DNA from: a virus | Strand: one strand, 5' to 3' | Virus record (IMG/VR): IMGVR_UViG_3300034072_001030 | Span: 1-26,810 of that record | Length of the DNA: 26,810 bases | Shown here: positions 10,294-26,810 of the stretch, in pieces | How positions within the stretch are numbered: the first letter of the stretch is position 1 | How the letters are laid out: every line of letters starts with the position of its first letter | Made by a program: the position numbers and the translations under genes | Notes under the pieces: model-generated | Database searches by the model: none | The model's input: the letters and a program-made list of their open reading frames with translations, nothing else | Told to the model about the DNA's origin: nothing

Positions 10294-10565
10294 GGGCGGC
10301 CGCCTTCGCCGAGTATCTCGACCGGTTGTTCGACCTCGGCACCGGTCACCTCGGCTGGACTGCGGCCGAAACCCTCGACACCAACCTCGACCATATCCGC
10401 CGGGCGGCTGACGCCCGGCATGAGCTGATCTCGTCGGTGCTCAGGGCGGTGTTTCCGCCCGCGCCGACGCCGCCTGGCGGCGACGGTGTGGCTGGCAAAC
10501 TCATGCGGTTTGCCAGCTCGCATAACGGGATGATCGCGGCGCGGGCCGCATCGGAGACGACATGA
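10290..10565 (+). CDS. Second small tail chaperone candidate
   Basis: 91 residues from a GTG start that overlaps the previous stop (GTGA). It ends by ATGA overlap with the tape measure gene. The first half is helical (LDRLFDLGTGHLGWTAAETLDTNLDHIRRAADARHELI), with the 'LGWT..E..' pattern common in short proteins encoded just before phage tape measures. In lambda the equivalent is made by -1 frameshifting. Here it has its own start and there is a stop (10254-10256) in its frame upstream, so it is probably translated separately by coupling. Confidence 0.72.
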   Translation: MRAAAFAEYLDRLFDLGTGHLGWTAAETLDTNLDHIRRAADARHELISSVLRAVFPPAPTPPGGDGVAGKLMRFASSHNGMIAARAASETT

Positions 10566-13500
10566 CCGGTGATTCTGATCGTTCGATGGAGGTTGTGCTC
10601 GCGGCGAATATTGCCGGGTTTGAGCGCGAGCTGCGCCGGGCGGATGCCGAGATTAGCGCGTTCTCGCGAAAGGCGGAGCGTGGGCTTGCCCAGGTCGACC
10701 GGGCAACGGGCGATTTCAATCGCTCGTCGGCACAGTCGGCCCGGGTGTGGGCGGCGAACATGCGGGCAATGCAGCAGCAGCAGCAGGCGCTGGCGGGGCT
10801 GAAAGGCGCGCTCGTCGGCGTCTCTGCGGCGATGGCGGCGCTTGGCTCGACGCAGCTGATCAACGGGGTCGTCCAGACCTCGGCCTCGTTTGAAAAGCTG
10901 CGAGCCTCGCTCAAGACGGTGACCGGATCTGCCGAGGCCGGGGCGGCAGCGTTCGAAGATATCAAGCGCTTTGCCGGGACGACGCCGTTCTCTGTTGCGC
11001 AGGCGACCGAGGCTTTCATCAAGTTGAAGGCGCTCGGGCTCGAGCCGTCGATGGCGGCGATGGAGAGTTATGGCAACACGGCCTCTGCCATGGGCAAAGA
11101 CCTTATGCAGTGGGTCGAGGCCATTGCGGATGCCACAACTGGTGAGTTCGAGCGGCTGAAGGAATTTGGTGTCAAGGCGAGCAAATCCGGCGACGAGGTG
11201 GCGTTTACGTTCCGGGGCGTGACGACAACCGTGCGCAACAGCGCTGACGAGGTCGAGCGCTATCTGCGGCGGATCGGGACGGACACGTTTGCCGGGGCCA
11301 TGCGCGAGCAGATGCAGGGGCTGAACGGGGCTCTGTCTGCGCTCGATGACCAGATCCAACTGACGGCCGATGCCATCGGACGCGGCGGGCTGTCGGACGC
11401 GATTGCCAATCTGGCCAATGATGCGGCGTCGGCGCTCGAGGGAAGCCGGGCTTCGTTCGAGGGGTTTGGCGGCGCGCTGGGATCGGCGCTCGAGGGCGCG
11501 GCCGGTGCCATGGTGCCGCTCGCTCGCAATGCGGATCTCGCGGCAATCGCGTTGGCGGCGGTGTTCGCCGGGCGGACCATCGGCGCGGTGACGGACTATG
11601 TCCAGGGCACGATGCAGGCGGTGGCGGCATCGCGGGCCAATGCAGCGGCGGCGCTCGAGGATGCGCGGGCGCAGGGCGTCAACGCGGTGGCGACGCTTCG
11701 CGCGGCGCAGGCGCGGCGGGATCTCGCTCTCGCCAACGGGGCCACGGCAGGGACGCTGGCGCGGCTCAGCCGTGACGTGGGGGCTGCCGAGCGTGCGGTC
11801 GACGGGGCGACGGCCAGCATGGCGCGCTGGTCGGACGAGCTGGCGCAGAGCACGGTGCGGGCGCGGGCGGCCAATGCGACGATGTCGGCCCTGCGCGGCA
11901 CGCTGGCGTTTTTTGGCGGGCCGATCGGTCTCGGCATTACCGCCATCACGGCGGGTGTGGCGATCTGGGCGACTCGGACGAGCGAGACGGAAACCGCGAC
12001 GCAGAGCCTCGAGGCGGCGGTGCGCCGGCTGCGGGAGGCCTATGGCCAGACCGGTGCCGAGGTCGAAAAACTGTCGCAGGCCTCGCGGGACATGGCGGCA
12101 TTCGAGGTTGGCGAGGCGCTCAAGGAACAGCGCGGCCAGCTGGAGACGGCCAAGGCGGAGCTGGACGCGGCGCTCGATGTGTGGCGCAACGCGATGGGCC
12201 GCAAGGCGGACCGGCGGGTGCAGCTCGGGATCGACGATCCGCTCAACGAATTTCTCAAGCAGGGCGGCGCGCTGCGTCAGCTCGCCGATGATTTTGACCA
12301 GGGCCGGATCGGGGTTGACCAGTTCCGCGACGCGCTGGCGCGGCTCGGCTCGGAAAACAGCGGCAATGCGGCGCTCGTTGCGCTGGTCGAGCAGGCGCTG
12401 CGCACGACGACGCAGGTCGCCGATCTGGAGCGCAGTGTCCGCGATGGCGAGGCTGCGCTCAATTCAGTGCAGGGCGCGGCGGGCGGGGCTGGCGGGGCCA
12501 TTGCCGGGGCGGGCAATGCGGCGGCAGGGGCGGCAGGGCAGTTTGCCGGGGCGGCGGCAGCGGTCGACACCTATGCTGCCTCGATGCGCAGCCTGGCAGC
12601 GGCGCTGCCTGGGATGCAGGCGGCGTTGGCGGCGCAGGACAAACTGACCGAGGCGCAGGCCGCGTATAACAGGGCGGTCGAGGCGGCCTATCAGACGCCG
12701 GACCCGACCAGCGCGATCCTTGAGGCGCAGCAGGCGCTGGCTGCATCGCGGCGCGAGATCACGGGTGTGGCTGAGGCGACGCGCGAGCTGCAGCGCATCG
12801 AGAAGGACACGCATATCGACGCGCTGCCGGCGCGCGAGCGGGCGGCGGCGCAGATCCGGCGGCAGTATGAGGAGCGCGAGGAGAGCATCCGGGCGCTGGT
12901 CAAATCGGGCGCGCAACAGGCCGAGGTTGACGAGCTGCTGGCAAAAAACAGCCGGGCGCTCGAGCGTGCGCTCGGCAACAGTGCGGCGGCGTTTGAGGCA
13001 AGCGGTCGCAAGGCTGGCGGCTCCGGCAAGCGGGTGTCTGAGGCCGCAAAATCCGTCGATGACTATCGCCGGATTGTGGAGCGGACGGCGCAGCAGGAGA
13101 TGCCCTGGCTGCGCGCGGCGGAGGAAGCGCAGGAGCTGCGCGAGGCGCTGGCGGCGCTGATTGCCACGGGCGAGGATCTGCCGCCCGAGTATGTGATTGC
13201 GGTACGCACGCGGATCGCTGAGCTGGAGCAGGGCGGCTCGATTGCCGACCTCGGCGCCGGCATGGGCCGGGATTTCGGCGACGCGTTTTCGAGCGGGTTT
13301 GGGGATGTGTTCCGCGACCTGATGGAGGGTGGGTTCGACTCGTTCGACGAGCTGCTCGACAAGGTGACGAGCAAGTTTGCCGATATCGGCTATCAGAACA
13401 TTGACCGGCTGTTCTCGGGCGAGGCGTTCAAGGATATGGGCTCGGCGCTGAGGGGCTCGCCGGGGGCGGCGCTGACCGATGCTGTCGAGGCCGGGGCTAT

Positions 13501-16252
13501 GCGCGGCACGCGCACCGGATCGGCGGCAGGTGTCATCGGGGCGCTGACGCAGGGCGGGGCGGCCGGGCTCATGTCGGCTGGAGGCCAGGCGCTTGGCGGG
13601 GCGCTTGGCGCGTTCAGCATGGGCTATCAGTCCGGCTCGCCGCTCATGGGCGGGCTGGGCGGTGCGCTGTCCGGCCTGTCGGCGGGTCTTGCCTTCGGCC
13701 CGGTGGGCGGGGCGATTGGAGCGCTGGTCGGTGGTGGGCTCGGGCTGTTCGGCGGCATCCTCGGCGGCAATGCGCAAGCCAAGCAAAAACGGCTCGCGGC
13801 ACAGCGCGAGCTGGCGACCTCGATGGGCGCCATCAACCAGTTCAAGCAGTTGTCGGCGGGCCGGGGCATCGGCGAGTTCCGCGACGGGTTTACGGAGTAT
13901 TCTGACCAGTCGGTCAAATACCAGATCCTCGCGCGCGATGCGGGCAACAAGGGGCTGCAGCGCGAGCTGGAGCAGCTGCACAGCCAGTATTTCGCGCTGC
14001 TGGAAAAGACTTTCCGCAAGGAACGCGACGTTGCGCTCGGTAATCTCAATCTGGGGTTCGGGTTTGATACCGCGTTCTTCGATGCAGTCGACAATATGGA
14101 GCAGGCGCGCGACCAGCTGACCGGCTGGGTCGATGACGCGCGCTACATGTTCGACCGTCTTCGGGACTATGGCAACGATCTCGATCCGGAGGCGGTGAAC
14201 ACCTACATCTCCGAAATGGAGCATGCTGCGCAGCGCTATGCCATCTCGCTGGTGACCGGCGTCGAGCCGATGAGCGATGTCGCCGAGCGGATCAACGAGA
14301 TCAAAGGCGCGGCGGTCGGCCTCGAGGAGACACTGATCCGGCTGGCGATGTCGGCGGACGAGGCCGCGGCCTCGGTGGACCAGGCGGTCAAGACCGCGAT
14401 GGACAAGCTCCGCGGTGAGTTCGCCGACGAGATCCGGCGCTCGATCAATGACCTCACGGACAGGGGCTACATCAACCAGCTCAATGACGCGGTCAAGACG
14501 CTCGGCGAGCGGCTGGCGGACACAAAGCTCCTCGGCCTCGACAGCGCGCTTGCGCTCGATGAGTTCGACGCGGCCATCGCCTCGATCACCCAGGGCGCGG
14601 CGGACAGCCTGCCGGCGGCGGAGCGGGCTGAGGTCTATCGCAATGCGCTCAAGGCCGTCTCCTCGGCGAGCGGCGAGGCGGCCGGGGTTGTGGACGGGCT
14701 GCTCAAGCGGGCGCTGGAAAGCCTGACCGAGGCGGCGGCCGAGGCTGCTACGCAGCTGGGCGAGGGCGCGCGGGGGCTCTATGCCGGCATCCGGGGCAGC
14801 ATCTCCGGGGCCATGGGGATCGGCTATTACAGCGAGATCGAGGAGGCGCTGACGCTCTACAACGAGCGGCTGAAAACGGCGGCGGATCTGGGGTTTGAGG
14901 CGACCGGGGCGCTGCGGGCGCTGGAGCTGTCGCTCGGCCAGATCGCGGCGACCTCGGGTCTGACCGAGTCGCAGCTCGAGGCGCTGGCCGAGGTGTTCCC
15001 CGCGATCTCCGACACGCTGCGCGGGTTGATCGGCGCGGGCGGATCGAACCAGGTGGCGGATGCGCGCTCGGCGGCGGATCAGGCGCGGGCTGCGCTGCGC
15101 GCGGCCTATGAGGCCGAGCGCTCGGAGCTGGAACAGACAATCTCGACGCTCGGCGGATTTGCCGAGCAGATCAGGGCATTCCGGACGCAGTTGCGGCTGG
15201 ACGCGCAGCTCTCGCCCCTGTCGCCGCTGGAAAAACTGCAGGAGGCGGCTCGGGTCTATCAGGAGACGCTCGCCAAGGTCGGACAGGGCGACAAGGACGC
15301 GCTCGGCCGGCTTGAGCAGGTCAGCCGCGATTACCTCAACGAGGCGCGGGCCTATTACGGCTCGACCGAGGCCTACACGACAATCTGGCAGTCGGTTGAC
15401 CAGCAGCTCGCAGCGGCGCTGGCCAGCGCGGAAACGCAGGTCTCGGCAGCGGAGCAGCAGCTGGCGGCGCTCAAAACGCAGGTCGGCGCGCTGATTGATA
15501 TCAATGACAGCGTCTTGTCGGTCGGGGCGGCGATCACCGGGCTCAATGCGGCGATGGCGGCGCTGGCGAGTGCAGAGGGTGCGCAGGCCGCTGCGATCCG
15601 CGAGCTGGCGGCGATGCAGGCCGCGCAGAATACCGCGACGATCCAGGCGCTGTATCAATCGCTGCTCGGGCGGCAGGCGGACGCGGGCGGGCTGGCGGGC
15701 TGGCAGCAGCATCTGGCCGGCGGCGGCTCGATCAAGGACGTGGCGAGCGGGATCGCCAACTCGCGCGAGGCGGCGATCCGTAATCTCTATCTGTCGGTGC
15801 TGGGCCGCGAGCCGGACAGTGCGGGCCTCGCAGGCTGGCTGGATTATCTCGCCAAGGGCGGCGACATAGCCGGGGTGCAGGCCGGCATTGTCAATTCGCC
15901 GGAGGCGGCGCGGTTGCGCTTGCCGGGCATGGCGGCGGGCGGGCTTGTCAGTGGCGGCGTTGCCGGCGTCGACAGCGTGCCGCGCATGCTGATGCCGGGC
16001 GAGTTTGTCATGCCGGTGCTGGCAACGCGCAACTATGCCAGCGAGCTGGCGCAGATGCGGGCCGGGACCTATCAGGCCAATGACAACTCGGGTGCCGTGG
16101 CTGCCGAGATCCGGGGGCTGCGGCAGGATGTGGACCGGCTGGCCGGGGTTGTGGCGGCCGGGGCGAGGGCCAATGTCGACGCGGTGCAGGAGACGACGCG
16201 CGCGGTGCAGGATCAGCAGCGGCTGGCGGGCATGGGCAGGGCGGCGCGATGA
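10562..16252 (+). CDS. Tape measure protein with C-terminal DUF4214-like repeats
   Basis: 1896 residues. The N-terminus (about 1-230) has the phage tape measure pattern 'ANIAGFERELRRADAEISAFSRKAERG...FEKLRASLKTVTGS...FKRFAGTTPFSV-like...TEAFIKLKALGL'. Long helical Ala/Gln-rich stretches follow, with hydrophobic segments near 450 (GPIGLGITAITAGVAIWA) and 1045 (GPVGGAIGALVGGGLGLFGG) that could insert in the host membrane at DNA entry. Around 1690-1785 are two tandem units of the type 'ALYQSLLGRQADAGGLAGW' and 'NLYLSVLGREPDSAGLAGW', matching DUF4214. Near 1790 comes the tape-measure ending 'GVDSVPRMLMPGEFVMP'. At about 0.15 nm per residue (known rule) the tail would be near 280 nm. The gene is coupled to both neighbours by ATGA. 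Confidence 0.93.
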   Translation: MTGDSDRSMEVVLAANIAGFERELRRADAEISAFSRKAERGLAQVDRATGDFNRSSAQSARVWAANMRAMQQQQQALAGLKGALVGVSAAMAALGSTQLINGVVQTSASFEKLRASLKTVTGSAEAGAAAFEDIKRFAGTTPFSVAQATEAFIKLKALGLEPSMAAMESYGNTASAMGKDLMQWVEAIADATTGEFERLKEFGVKASKSGDEVAFTFRGVTTTVRNSADEVERYLRRIGTDTFAGAMREQMQGLNGALSALDDQIQLTADAIGRGGLSDAIANLANDAASALEGSRASFEGFGGALGSALEGAAGAMVPLARNADLAAIALAAVFAGRTIGAVTDYVQGTMQAVAASRANAAAALEDARAQGVNAVATLRAAQARRDLALANGATAGTLARLSRDVGAAERAVDGATASMARWSDELAQSTVRARAANATMSALRGTLAFFGGPIGLGITAITAGVAIWATRTSETETATQSLEAAVRRLREAYGQTGAEVEKLSQASRDMAAFEVGEALKEQRGQLETAKAELDAALDVWRNAMGRKADRRVQLGIDDPLNEFLKQGGALRQLADDFDQGRIGVDQFRDALARLGSENSGNAALVALVEQALRTTTQVADLERSVRDGEAALNSVQGAAGGAGGAIAGAGNAAAGAAGQFAGAAAAVDTYAASMRSLAAALPGMQAALAAQDKLTEAQAAYNRAVEAAYQTPDPTSAILEAQQALAASRREITGVAEATRELQRIEKDTHIDALPARERAAAQIRRQYEEREESIRALVKSGAQQAEVDELLAKNSRALERALGNSAAAFEASGRKAGGSGKRVSEAAKSVDDYRRIVERTAQQEMPWLRAAEEAQELREALAALIATGEDLPPEYVIAVRTRIAELEQGGSIADLGAGMGRDFGDAFSSGFGDVFRDLMEGGFDSFDELLDKVTSKFADIGYQNIDRLFSGEAFKDMGSALRGSPGAALTDAVEAGAMRGTRTGSAAGVIGALTQGGAAGLMSAGGQALGGALGAFSMGYQSGSPLMGGLGGALSGLSAGLAFGPVGGAIGALVGGGLGLFGGILGGNAQAKQKRLAAQRELATSMGAINQFKQLSAGRGIGEFRDGFTEYSDQSVKYQILARDAGNKGLQRELEQLHSQYFALLEKTFRKERDVALGNLNLGFGFDTAFFDAVDNMEQARDQLTGWVDDARYMFDRLRDYGNDLDPEAVNTYISEMEHAAQRYAISLVTGVEPMSDVAERINEIKGAAVGLEETLIRLAMSADEAAASVDQAVKTAMDKLRGEFADEIRRSINDLTDRGYINQLNDAVKTLGERLADTKLLGLDSALALDEFDAAIASITQGAADSLPAAERAEVYRNALKAVSSASGEAAGVVDGLLKRALESLTEAAAEAATQLGEGARGLYAGIRGSISGAMGIGYYSEIEEALTLYNERLKTAADLGFEATGALRALELSLGQIAATSGLTESQLEALAEVFPAISDTLRGLIGAGGSNQVADARSAADQARAALRAAYEAERSELEQTISTLGGFAEQIRAFRTQLRLDAQLSPLSPLEKLQEAARVYQETLAKVGQGDKDALGRLEQVSRDYLNEARAYYGSTEAYTTIWQSVDQQLAAALASAETQVSAAEQQLAALKTQVGALIDINDSVLSVGAAITGLNAAMAALASAEGAQAAAIRELAAMQAAQNTATIQALYQSLLGRQADAGGLAGWQQHLAGGGSIKDVASGIANSREAAIRNLYLSVLGREPDSAGLAGWLDYLAKGGDIAGVQAGIVNSPEAARLRLPGMAAGGLVSGGVAGVDSVPRMLMPGEFVMPVLATRNYASELAQMRAGTYQANDNSGAVAAEIRGLRQDVDRLAGVVAAGARANVDAVQETTRAVQDQQRLAGMGRAAR

Positions 16253-24192: not shown

Positions 24193-24517
24193 TCTGATCG
24201 GGCAATGGCTTGCCCACGCGTCGCTCACCAAATGGCTGATGATCCTTGCCTTTGCCGTTCTCGGCGCGTTGATGCAGCGGGACCTGTCCCTGTGGGGGCG
24301 GCTGCTGGCGGTGGCGGCAGGGCTCGGCGCGGCGGTGACGTTCGCCGAGCCGATCCGGCAATTCCTGTCGCTCGATCCGACGTGGAGCGATGCTGTGGCG
24401 GCGGGGCTGGCGCTGACGGGCCGCAACTGGGCAGCGTTTGCGCTGCGGGCGAGCCGTGATCCGTTGGCGACAGCGCGGGACGTGTTGGGGATCTGGCGGG
24501 GCAAGGGCGGGGGGTGA
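24179..24517 (+). CDS. Small membrane protein of the lysis cassette
   Basis: 112 residues from GTG 24179, chosen because AGGAG at 24167-24171 is well spaced; it overlaps the lipoprotein end by 14 bp. Two membrane segments are likely: SLTKWLMILAFAVLGALMQ and LWGRLLAVAAGLGAAVTFA. The C-terminal half (SLDPTWSDAVAAGLALTGRNWAAFALRASRDP) is amphipathic and ends basic with Gly. By size and place it could be a second holin or an antiholin. No family is recognised with certainty. It is the last + strand gene, followed by the converging minus-strand XRE gene. Confidence 0.65.
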   Translation: MKLIDLIGQWLAHASLTKWLMILAFAVLGALMQRDLSLWGRLLAVAAGLGAAVTFAEPIRQFLSLDPTWSDAVAAGLALTGRNWAAFALRASRDPLATARDVLGIWRGKGGG

Positions 24518-24524
24518 TCCCCGC
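24507..24524. terminator. Weak hairpin between converging genes
   Basis: A six-bp stem (24507-24512 with 24519-24524) with loop GGTGAT covers the end of the last + strand gene and abuts the stop codon of the - strand XRE gene. It lacks a T-run on either strand, so termination here is only weakly supported. Confidence 0.35.
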
Positions 24525-24794
24525 TTACCGGAACGCTTGAATCGCCAGAGCCAGCAAGTGCGGGTATGCAAAGCCTCGTCCTTGCTCAATGCCTTCGTAA
24601 GTCCGGGCCGGGATGCCCAAAACCTCGGCGGCGCGGCTGGCTGTCAAGCCAGCCGCAGCGCGCCATTCACGGCACATCTTCGCCGTCTCCGTCGCCTGCT
24701 GGGCTTTGTATTCCTTCGTCCGTGTCATCTTCTGGGTTTCCGCTGTCGCCTGATCCAGCTGCATCTCGATCAATTCTCGCGCGTCTCCAGTCAT
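24525..24794 (-). CDS. Small XRE-type helix-turn-helix regulator
   Basis: 89 residues from the ATG at 24794, which has GGAGA about 10 nt upstream; an alternative ATG at 24677 would give only 50 residues. The C-terminal half carries the HTH (MCREWRAAAGLTASRAAEVLG...RTYEGIEQGRGFAYPHLLALAI), with the XRE family's 'GLT...AA..LG...RTY..IEQGR' signature. The N-terminal 38 residues are helical and charged. It overlaps the preceding 130-residue frame by 128 bp. It lies last in a - strand set whose promoter holds two palindromic operators, so it could be the repressor binding there or a Cro/Arc-like partner. That is inference. Confidence 0.72.
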   Translation of the reverse strand: MTGDARELIEMQLDQATAETQKMTRTKEYKAQQATETAKMCREWRAAAGLTASRAAEVLGIPARTYEGIEQGRGFAYPHLLALAIQAFR

Positions 24795-25059
24795 GATCCG
24801 TGGTCTCCAAATAGTGCATATAACTCAGGGCCGCCGCGGCCTTGCGCTGGTCGAGTATCTTCAGGCCGCCGCCGACCCATGCACAGAGGCGACCGGTGCG
24901 GTTGACTTCAACCAAAACCCCGAACGGAACCATCGGGAAAAACTCGTAAAGGTACGCTTTGGCGGTGATAGTGTGGGGAATGCCCGACAGCAGCCCATGG
25001 ATCGGGCGGCTGTTGAGCGGGGCGCAATTGATGCGCCCCCTCGGTCTGTAGGAGGTCAT
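24667..25059 (-). CDS. Unknown protein of the lysogeny-side operon
   Basis: 130 residues. It starts with a TGATG overlap of the preceding gene, so its 5' part is probably genuine. The first ~88 residues are well structured ('HTITAKAYLYEFFPMVPFGVLVEVNRTGRLCAWVGGGLKILDQRKAAAALSYMHYLETTDHD'). The last ~40 residues are low complexity and acidic, and share 128 bp out of frame with the XRE gene. Either the overlap is real or the true C-terminus is shorter through a frameshift. No family is recognised. Confidence 0.55.
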   Translation of the reverse strand: MTSYRPRGRINCAPLNSRPIHGLLSGIPHTITAKAYLYEFFPMVPFGVLVEVNRTGRLCAWVGGGLKILDQRKAAAALSYMHYLETTDHDWRRARIDRDAAGSGDSGNPEDDTDEGIQSPAGDGDGEDVP

Positions 25060-25346
25060 CAGCGGTTGGACGCGGGCTGCAGGATCACCTGGTGATCGGG
25101 GCGCCCGATCAGCACCGGGTTGCCGGTGTCCGTGATCGAAACATCGTAATGGGTGCCGATGTTGTCGTACACAGCGGGGCGCCCCAGCATGTCTTCGCCA
25201 AGCGCGAGGCTGGGCGGCAACACGAAATCGGCTTGAAAATCACCGTTGGTGTCAATGGCCAGGTGGTGGTTGAACGTCCAGACATCTGGAAGATTGCGAA
25301 AGCCGCTGTGGAGCTTGGTCAGGGTGATGATGGTCATCTTCGTCAT
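25059..25346 (-). CDS. Unknown protein, first gene behind the operator promoter
   Basis: 95 residues, preceded by GAGGGGCGG. Sequence features are a hydrophobic, beta-looking start (MTKMTIITLTKLHSGF), 'DVWTFNHHLAIDTNGDFQADFVLPPSL' and 'YDNIGTHYDVSITDTGNPVLIGRPDHQVIL', which reads as a small beta protein. I do not recognise the family. It begins about 50 bp after the putative promoter/operator (25397-25452) and is coupled to the next gene by TGATG. It has A/T-richer codons than the late genes, suggesting separate origin. Confidence 0.6.
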   Translation of the reverse strand: MTKMTIITLTKLHSGFRNLPDVWTFNHHLAIDTNGDFQADFVLPPSLALGEDMLGRPAVYDNIGTHYDVSITDTGNPVLIGRPDHQVILQPASNR

Positions 25347-25396
25347 CCGCCCCTCATTGCCGGGAGGCGCCGGGTCAACGCTCTGTTGATGGCTGA

Positions 25397-25425
25397 GATG
25401 TACGCAATCTGCGTATCCCCGTCAA
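25397..25425 (-). promoter_or_regulatory. Promoter for the minus-strand operon 25346-24525
   Basis: A -35 TTGACG (25425-25420) and a weaker -10 TACATC (25402-25397) are separated by 17 bp. The start codon at 25346 lies about 50 bp downstream. One operator palindrome fills the spacer. Confidence 0.5.
25401..25415. promoter_or_regulatory. Operator 1, palindrome TACGC-N5-GCGTA
   Basis: Perfect 5-bp arms (25401-25405 and 25411-25415) with a 5-bp spacer AATCT. It lies between the -35 and -10 of the minus-strand promoter, so binding would block it. Confidence 0.65.
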
Positions 25426-25429
25426 CTGA

Positions 25430-25452
25430 AAAATACGCAAACAGCGTATTTT
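25430..25452. promoter_or_regulatory. Operator 2, palindrome with the same core
   Basis: 9-bp perfect arms (25430-25438 and 25444-25452) around AAACA. The inner core is TACGC-N5-GCGTA as in operator 1. The centres are 33 bp apart, about three helix turns, so both can be bound on one face and could cooperate. It lies just upstream of the -35. Confidence 0.68.
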
Positions 25453-25473
25453 CGCCGGATCGCCGGCGTCGCC

Positions 25474-25698
25474 TCATCTGCGGGAGGCAAGCGGGTCAAC
25501 GGCGGGGCACCGGGCAATGATCCTGGCTCGCTCCCTGACCATCAGCTCAACGCTCTGGCGGCATGGCTTTGCGGCTTCGAATGCCCCCAGGGCGACGGTC
25601 AGGTTGCAGCAGCGTGCGATTACTTCGACGATTCGCCCGGTCTCGTCACGCGCTTCGACCGTGAATGGCAGGCTTTCCGGCAGGACTGGGTTCGGCAT
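25474..25698 (-). CDS. Small protein behind a LexA-boxed promoter
   Basis: 74 residues: 'LPFTVEARDETGRIVEVIARCCNLTVALGAFEAAKPCRQSVELMVRERARII', a compact domain with a beta start and helical middle. Similar short proteins with the 'F.VE..D..g...E......N...A..A(F/Y)EAA....' pattern are frequent in alphaproteobacterial prophages, with unknown function. The promoter just upstream (25731-25759) has a GTTC-N7-GTTC site over its start, so expression should be induced by DNA damage. An antirepressor or SOS-linked role is a possibility only. The ribosome-binding site is poor. Confidence 0.62.
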   Translation of the reverse strand: MPNPVLPESLPFTVEARDETGRIVEVIARCCNLTVALGAFEAAKPCRQSVELMVRERARIIARCPAVDPLASRR

Positions 25699-25713
25699 GT
25701 GGCGCGGCTCTTT

Positions 25714-25728
25714 GTTCTATCAATGTTC
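25714..25728. promoter_or_regulatory. LexA (SOS) box, GTTC-N7-GTTC
   Basis: GTTC at 25714-25717 and 25725-25728 are separated by exactly 7 bp (TATCAAT), which is the direct-repeat operator of alphaproteobacterial LexA (established for Rhodobacter and rhizobia). It covers the expected start of transcription of the promoter for the 74-residue gene. The match is exact at all eight fixed positions. Confidence 0.75.
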
Positions 25729-25730
25729 TC

Positions 25731-25759
25731 ATTCTCGATAGCCAGCCCGGTCGCGTCAA
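25731..25759 (-). promoter_or_regulatory. Promoter of the 74-residue gene
   Basis: -35 TTGACG (25759-25754), spacer of 17 bp, -10 GAGAAT (25736-25731, 4 of 6 consensus). The start would be near 25724, inside the LexA box, and the gene begins at 25698. Confidence 0.55.
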
Positions 25760-25764
25760 GCCCG

Positions 25765-26145
25765 TCAGATCGGGTTGCCGAACAGGTCGAACTTGAGCCT
25801 GTCCGGCCCGGACGGCGCGGGGGCCGGCGAGGCCGGTGGCGGGGTCTGCCGCTGCTCCTGGTACTCGCGCCATGACCGCGCGGCGGGGGTCTCCGTGCCC
25901 TCGCGGCGGTGCTGCTCGAGCGCGGCGAACAGCGCCTTGGCCTCGGTCTTGTCACGTGGGAGTGAGTGTCTCGAGATGCACGAAACCAGTGTGCCGTTGC
26001 GCTCGGCCACGTCCTCGGCCCGGAATGTGAGGTGTCCGCGATCCCATGCGAACAGCACTGGCTGCAACTGCCCGAGCGCAGGCACGTGATAACAGGCATG
26101 GCCACGCCGCTCGCGGCGGCACATTCTGAGGATGCGTGTGTTCAT
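25765..26145 (-). CDS. Unknown 126-residue protein
   Basis: Start ATG has GGGAAG upstream. The protein opens 'NTRILRMCRRERRGHACYHVPALGQLQPVLFAWDRGHL' with Cys/His and basic residues, continues 'DVAERNGTLVSCISRHSLPRDKTEAKALFAALEQHRR' and has a Pro/Ala-rich linker before a short C-terminal FDLFGNPI. No family is recognised. A free C-terminal DLF-type motif after a flexible linker resembles sliding-clamp binding peptides, but this is weak evidence. The gene is followed 6 bp on by the LexA-boxed promoter of the next gene. Confidence 0.55.
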   Translation of the reverse strand: MNTRILRMCRRERRGHACYHVPALGQLQPVLFAWDRGHLTFRAEDVAERNGTLVSCISRHSLPRDKTEAKALFAALEQHRREGTETPAARSWREYQEQRQTPPPASPAPAPSGPDRLKFDLFGNPI

Positions 26146-26199
26146 GGCAGTCTTCCCGGGCGAGCCCGGCGGCGCCGTGAGGTGCCGCCGGGGCTGGTG

Positions 26200-26568
26200 T
26201 CAGGCTGCGTCGTGGTGCCAGCCGACCAGATTTGCGTACTCAGCGGACAGGGCAAATCCGGCGAGCGCGTCGCCCATATCGGCGCGTCCAGTGTAGAGGA
26301 GGTCCAGCCAGGCGCTGGACTCCTCGACGCTGCCGGCGCGGTTGAGCGCATTGCTGTAGAGCCGTTGCACGATGACCGATGGCGTGCCGCCAAGGCCGGT
26401 GCCGGCGGCAAACTCCGCGCTGGCGGCAAACGCGTCGGCGACGCTGTAGAGGTCCAGCTGGCCGGATGTGAGCAGGTCGATGTGATGGGCGAGGCCTGCC
26501 GCGTCGGGCGGGCGGTTGAATGCCGCGTCATAGAGTGCGGTGATTTGCTGCTGCAGGGTCAATGCCAT
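26200..26568 (-). CDS. DUF4214-type protein
   Basis: 122 residues from ATG 26568, which has a strong AGGAG; an in-frame ATG at 26658 lacks a good site and is less likely. The protein is two DUF4214-like units: 'ITALYDAAFNRPPDAAGLAHHIDLL...SVADAFAASAEF' and 'VQRLYSNALNRAGSVEESSAWLDLLYTG...GFALSAEY'. DUF4214 occurs in RTX-like secreted and surface proteins; its role is poorly known. The same unit occurs twice near the end of this phage's tape measure. It lies at the far right end and has a LexA-like box upstream, so it is probably an accessory (moron-type) gene expressed separately from the late operon. Confidence 0.75.
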   Translation of the reverse strand: MALTLQQQITALYDAAFNRPPDAAGLAHHIDLLTSGQLDLYSVADAFAASAEFAAGTGLGGTPSVIVQRLYSNALNRAGSVEESSAWLDLLYTGRADMGDALAGFALSAEYANLVGWHHDAA

Positions 26569-26588
26569 GTGGCTCTCCTGTTTGGAGG

Positions 26589-26645
26589 GCCTGTGCGACG
26601 CGGAATCAGCCAGCCCGGCGCGGGGATGGGCGGAGCCGCACAGGC
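26589..26645. repeat. Inverted repeat in the leader of the DUF4214 gene
   Basis: Nine-bp perfect arms GCCTGTGCG (26589-26597) and CGCACAGGC (26637-26645) enclose 39 bp. It may form a stem in the - strand leader RNA 20 bp ahead of the start codon, or be a protein site. The rest of 26569-26690 shows no gene. Confidence 0.4.
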
Positions 26646-26691
26646 GGTCTCCAGTCATGCGCCGGGATGGGGAATTGCAGGTCGTGCCCGG

Positions 26692-26706
26692 GAACGGCGG
26701 GCGAAC
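26692..26706. promoter_or_regulatory. Second LexA-type box, GAAC-N7-GAAC
   Basis: GAAC at 26692-26695 and 26703-26706 with exactly seven bp between (GGCGGGC): the reverse reading of the alphaproteobacterial LexA site. It lies 124 bp upstream of the DUF4214 start. No clear -10/-35 pair was found nearby, so its target promoter is uncertain. Confidence 0.6.
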
Positions 26707-26746
26707 AAAAAAGTCCCACCTTTTCCGGCATGGAAAAAGGTGGGAC
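26707..26746 (-). terminator. Intrinsic terminator reading leftward
   Basis: A 12-bp perfect stem (26713-26724 with 26735-26746). On the - strand it is followed by a T-run (26712-26707). It would end transcripts entering from the right, as expected for the tRNA-Cys-like gene at the window edge. Confidence 0.75.
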
Positions 26747-26750
26747 CAAA

Positions 26751-26774
26751 AAAGGCGAAAAAGCCTTTGTTTTC
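26751..26774. terminator. Second hairpin next to the terminator, possibly bidirectional
   Basis: AAAGGC (26751-26756) pairs with GCCTTT (26763-26768), loop GAAAAA. T-rich bases follow on the + strand (GTTTTC), and three more A lie upstream on that strand, giving a T-run on the - strand. Together with the preceding stem it forms a tandem terminator. Confidence 0.5.
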
Positions 26775-26793
26775 AATATCAGTAAGGGAAGGC

Positions 26794-26810
26794 TGGAGGC
26801 CTCGCCCGGA
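26794..26810 (-). tRNA. 3' end of a tRNA gene, probably tRNA-Cys (cut by window edge)
   Basis: Read on the - strand, the last bases give a T-stem half CCGGG, an acceptor half CGAGGCC, then T and an encoded CCA (26796-26794). The discriminator base T (position 73) is characteristic of bacterial tRNA-Cys. Only 17 bp are visible, so the anticodon cannot be checked. Its 3' end faces the phage, the usual geometry for an attachment site. Confidence 0.6.

Follow-up and report, generated by a model that had tools for sequence, protein, structure and literature searches.

The best-known LexA-driven prophage switches are those of enterobacteria and Bacillus, and an alphaproteobacterial LexA-driven switch would widen the known range, the more so as its gene is conserved and open to testing. 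In Gifsy and 186, the terminal operon of the prophage is LexA-controlled and codes for a DinI homologue together with an antirepressor (PMC3121763). For Alphaproteobacteria, the published LexA motif is the direct repeat GTTC-N7-GTTC (PMC3323433), and a LexA direct repeat is described for Caulobacter as well (PMC12907096).

We analysed an IMG/VR virus record of 26,810 nucleotides (the window), a Pannonibacter-type prophage that carries at its end the gene of a 74-residue protein. This gene lies in a right-end module beside the attachment site and is transcribed inwards, against the late genes. It resembles the antirepressor operons of Gifsy, 186 (Tum) and N15 (AntC) in its small size, in its place away from the early region at an end of the prophage, and in having a LexA box in its promoter, the regulation being predicted in our case; in the complete sister prophage of G011, the repressor candidate has no self-cleaving domain. 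The differences are that the box is alphaproteobacterial, that the protein is unrelated and any antirepressor activity putative, and that relatives of the 74-residue protein occur mostly outside recognisable phages. The features of the region, with reference to the related prophages of G011 and of Pannonibacter sp. SL95, are as follows.

25474–25698, minus strand: gene of the 74-residue protein, a member of an unnamed SOS-associated family (open reading frame; codon-position substitutions).
25714–25728, minus strand: LexA box, an exact GTTC-N7-GTTC match, kept in G011 and, with another spacer, in SL95.
25731–25759, minus strand: sigma-70-like promoter TTGACG-17-GAGAAT, predicted start inside the LexA box.
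25765–26145, minus strand: gene of a 126-residue protein, upstream neighbour of the 74-residue gene; region conserved in G011.
26200–26568, minus strand: gene of a DUF4214-domain protein (Pfam PF13946, E 6e-17), the first gene inside the attachment end.
26692–26706, minus strand: second exact GTTC-N7-GTTC, lying 124 bp before the DUF4214 gene; a weaker candidate.
26712–26747, minus strand: intrinsic terminator that separates the attachment end from the right-end module.
26794–26810, unstranded: 3' end of tRNA-Cys (17 nt) at the window edge, the likely attachment core.

An earlier note on this DNA had placed GTTC-N7-GTTC at 25714–25728, overlapping the start predicted by a TTGACG-17-GAGAAT promoter. 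The box is present at exactly those positions (GTTCTATCAATGTTC on the plus strand, GAACATTGATAGAAC on the gene strand), with the ATG of the 74-residue gene 15 bp downstream, and the promoter is found at 25759–25731 on the minus strand with its predicted start overlapping the box; the stop of the 126-residue gene falls just before its −35 hexamer. In a scan of positions 24400–26810, this promoter was the single sigma-70-like match (0.2 expected). The note had also put the number of chance matches in the noncoding DNA of the window at well under one, which our calculation bears out: approximately 0.025 exact matches are expected in the ~1254 noncoding bases and 0.54 over the whole window, and a local Markov model gives a 0.5% chance of an exact match in the 66-nt intergenic segment of the box. 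Since the window has another exact, GC-rich, intergenic match at 26692–26706, which the note does not mention, the box match by itself is suggestive rather than decisive, and the predicted LexA control draws its main weight from comparative evidence.

The window shares ~90% nucleotide identity over most late genes with two prophages of Pannonibacter sp. SL95, which are nearly identical to each other (L002, L003), and with one prophage of G011. The latter is complete (~42 kb, G011:C1 2325115–2367438) and lies between 49-bp direct repeats that include the 3' part of a tRNA-Thr gene, with a tyrosine integrase adjoining one repeat copy. A gene similar to the DNA polymerase III beta clamp (Pfam DNA_pol3_beta) was seen in its early region, at approximately G011:C1 2355746–2356945. 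The identity between the window and SL95 stops within the SL95 tRNA-Cys. The two SL95 copies (G001:C5 and C6) are 99.8% identical, each at the end of a contig; next to one is a complete tRNA-Cys gene, and next to the other, beyond the same 17-bp core, is unrelated DNA, which reflects either a second insertion site or an assembly effect.

The box is found in G011 at L006:1471–1485 and in SL95 at L002/L003:4972–4986. Between G011 and the window, ~1 of 46 positions of the promoter and box differs, the −35 and −10 hexamers are identical, and the arm is 84.5% identical. In SL95, the TTGACT-like −35 is the one promoter element kept, and the DNA upstream of the box is unrelated to that of the window and belongs to a methylase gene; nevertheless, GAACAAAAAGCGAAC stands 14 bp before the ATG with both GAAC half-sites in place and a different spacer. 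The half-sites and their place are therefore conserved, and the spacer is not. The prophage relative L044, from IMG/VR, has GCACATTGATAGAAC, that is, GCAC-N7-GAAC, one half-site carrying one mismatch. GAAC-N7-GAAC also lies upstream of lexA and recA in both G011 and SL95, so that the 74-residue gene has the same box, in the same genomes and likewise upstream of the start codon, as the alphaproteobacterial SOS regulon (recA, lexA and others). The genes behind the 74-residue gene are not the same among the three prophages (window, G011, SL95). Substitutions in the gene itself by codon position number 8/4/28 against G011 and 16/5/33 against SL95, which indicates constraint at the protein level.

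A family profile was built from the three prophage proteins and extended to 13 and then 25 members. Profile searches gave diverged relatives in 29 of 397 Hyphomicrobiales genomes and in 13 of 87 genomes of the Pannonibacter family, and a class-wide search with a broader profile, in which at most 16 candidates per genome were scored, gave them in at least 3 of 385 genomes drawn from the class. Within that scope, the family looks concentrated in Hyphomicrobiales. A plasmid of Cereibacter sphaeroides has a weak tblastn match. In IMG/VR, a scan with the single protein gave no relative, and a scan with the alignment gave one, L044. Candidates L007–L009, antisense to an amidase gene, were rejected as spurious, as were L029, L030, L040, L041 and L043, which were left out of the counts.

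The family motif is approximately F-x-V-E-x-W-D ... E-x-x-A ... A-A-[FY]-x-A-A ... L-R-x-G-x-R-V-I. The 74-residue protein gave no significant family in Pfam, PHROGs, NCBIfam, PADLOC or PDB sequences, and a search of solved structures by sequence gave none for the family. A DUF3331 match (E 0.02) was rejected, being below the DUF3331 cut-off and present in 1 of 13 members. The family was not found among the named alphaproteobacterial SOS genes that we consulted; a member may have been mentioned earlier in the survey of Erill et al. 2004, reportedly the main one of alphaproteobacterial LexA regulons. Chromosomal and plasmid relatives are often extended at the N- or C-terminus, in some cases with zinc-ribbon-like cysteines; a segment of this cysteine type is fused in L032, L039, L042, L053, L064 and L065, at the C-terminus in the MGGK group and at the N-terminus in L064/L065.

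We counted exact GTTC-N7-GTTC or GAAC-N7-GAAC upstream of the family domain at 44 loci, namely 31 that also served for control segments, later matches and the prophages, all picked by protein similarity only, with evident false matches removed. Of the 44, 37 have an exact box in the 600 bp upstream. As closely related loci cannot count as independent, we also give the number for clusters at 50% identity, 21 of 22 of which have an exact upstream box. At the 31 loci with control segments, a box occurs within 600 bp upstream in 27, in the next 600 bp upstream in one and in the 600 bp downstream in none. The later-found set from the Pannonibacter family, with a box at 7 of 9 new loci, is the cleaner test, because the boxes of some training members were already in view when those members were accepted as genuine. 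The exact box is missing at seven family loci, L044 among them. Box spacers vary between clusters, with a T-rich consensus, and the box is farthest away where the protein has an additional N-terminal segment or where a small ORF intervenes. At L023 and L026, the LexA box and the family gene are separated by a small ORF of the EFGGDAREAIRALLxDI...GYVR type, which suggests a two-gene SOS operon. A search of IMG/VR with the exact box pattern gave four sites, all unrelated.

The analysis shows that the box is present, that independent prophages conserve it and that it accompanies the family in chromosomes and on a plasmid. The suggestion of the earlier note that the 74-residue gene is under direct SOS control gains strong support from a conserved box that is nearly universal upstream of the gene family; this control is well supported as a prediction, and we infer that LexA binds the box and that the gene is induced. 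With a box at 21 of 22 clusters and no entry in Pfam, NCBIfam or PHROGs, the family ranks as a strong candidate for an SOS gene that has so far been overlooked, and its loci make a clear gene list for tests in culturable strains.

As the best explanation that we can offer, the 74-residue gene probably represents, in the prophage, an undescribed family of small proteins within the Hyphomicrobiales SOS regulon, and it would be silenced by LexA and released by damage. Host LexA bound over the transcription start would block RNA polymerase and keep the gene silent in the lysogen; DNA damage would lead to RecA-stimulated LexA cleavage and release of the promoter, and the 74-residue protein would be made early, perhaps with whatever module follows on the same strand. 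As a looser suggestion, the protein may be a soluble accessory factor of the SOS response that the phage employs in the manner of the DinI homologues in the LexA-controlled end operons of 186 and Gifsy; it would time induction, with RecA, LexA, repair or the phage switch as its target. Like those homologues (that of 186 being fused in Tum), it is a small, putatively SOS-regulated protein found both in host chromosomes and in a LexA-controlled operon, here a predicted one, at a prophage end; unlike them, it belongs to another bacterial class, and none of the 13 members compared with Pfam-A has a DinI match at E ≤ 1. The family looks like a conserved, undescribed part of the DNA-damage response common to phages and hosts. 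That this new Hyphomicrobiales family is a general modulator of SOS or prophage induction, the counterpart in Alphaproteobacteria of DinI and the small antirepressors, is a possibility that we put forward tentatively.

It should be noted that the G011 prophage (2325115–2367438) has no S24 peptidase match, that its regulators, the repressor candidate included, are HTH-only, and that the window itself is without an early region or repressor. Cleavage of a lambda-type repressor is accordingly not an obvious route to induction in G011, and a LexA-controlled gene becomes a plausible route from damage to induction. The same observation favours the strongest rival, in which the 74-residue protein is a LexA-controlled antirepressor. 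After damage it would bind the prophage's HTH repressor and so set off lytic growth, as Tum, GfoA/GftA of Gifsy or AntC do. The gene comes first after the LexA box and lies outside the early region, with the integrase at the other end of the prophage, and the same logic has been demonstrated for Gifsy, 186 and N15 (PMC3121763). However, the family is scattered and mostly outside recognisable prophages, a poor fit for the partner of one repressor, and with different genes behind it in the three prophages, the effector could be one of those genes. A comparison of the neighbours of family loci gave none that is conserved; a minority belong to phages or mobile elements (integrase, portal, transposase), and a mobile location is therefore still possible for some of the chromosomal members. 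The many relatives outside recognisable prophages and the lack of a conserved neighbour favour a host-type SOS function, which is at least as likely as an antirepressor role; the latter is only possible, and we consider it rather unlikely.

A less probable alternative still, and one that we doubt, is that the gene is SOS-inducible cargo that helps the damaged host or the lytic phage, for instance by slowing division or protecting DNA, with no role in the lysis-lysogeny decision. The terminal extensions of chromosomal and plasmid relatives, a number of them with zinc-ribbon-like cysteines, would suit it, as would the SOS-response-associated peptidase gene near the relative on the Cereibacter plasmid; but the gene stays persistently beside the attachment site in prophages that are otherwise variable there, and its product has no hydrophobic stretch, in contrast to SidA of Caulobacter, a membrane division inhibitor. 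Lastly, a box that matches by chance, with the gene outside LexA control, is very improbable, for all that the window has another exact match and L044 has lost one half-site, given exact upstream boxes at 37 of 44 family loci against 1 of 31 in control segments and the SL95 half-sites conserved despite a changed spacer.

The entire end module may be under SOS control. The second box (26692–26706) comes after the terminator and is also present in SL95, and in G011, where the DNA is unrelated, two boxes (L006:535–549 and 583–597) precede the DUF4214 gene. The case is weaker, because the second box has a GC-rich spacer and its DNA hardly differs between the window and SL95. Scans for DUF4214 and holin genes gave no additional right-end modules with boxes, and L116 has no box.

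Elsewhere in the window, two palindromes (TACGCAATCTGCGTA and ATACGCAAACAGCGTAT) at 25401–25449 surround a TTGACG-17-TACATC promoter, which precedes genes for a 95-residue, a 130-residue and an XRE-type HTH protein (24525–25346, minus strand) and looks like that of a self-regulated HTH operon. Positions 10562–16252 encode a tape-measure-like protein of 1896 residues, whose C-terminal part in the related SL95 phage appears DUF4214-like by eye.
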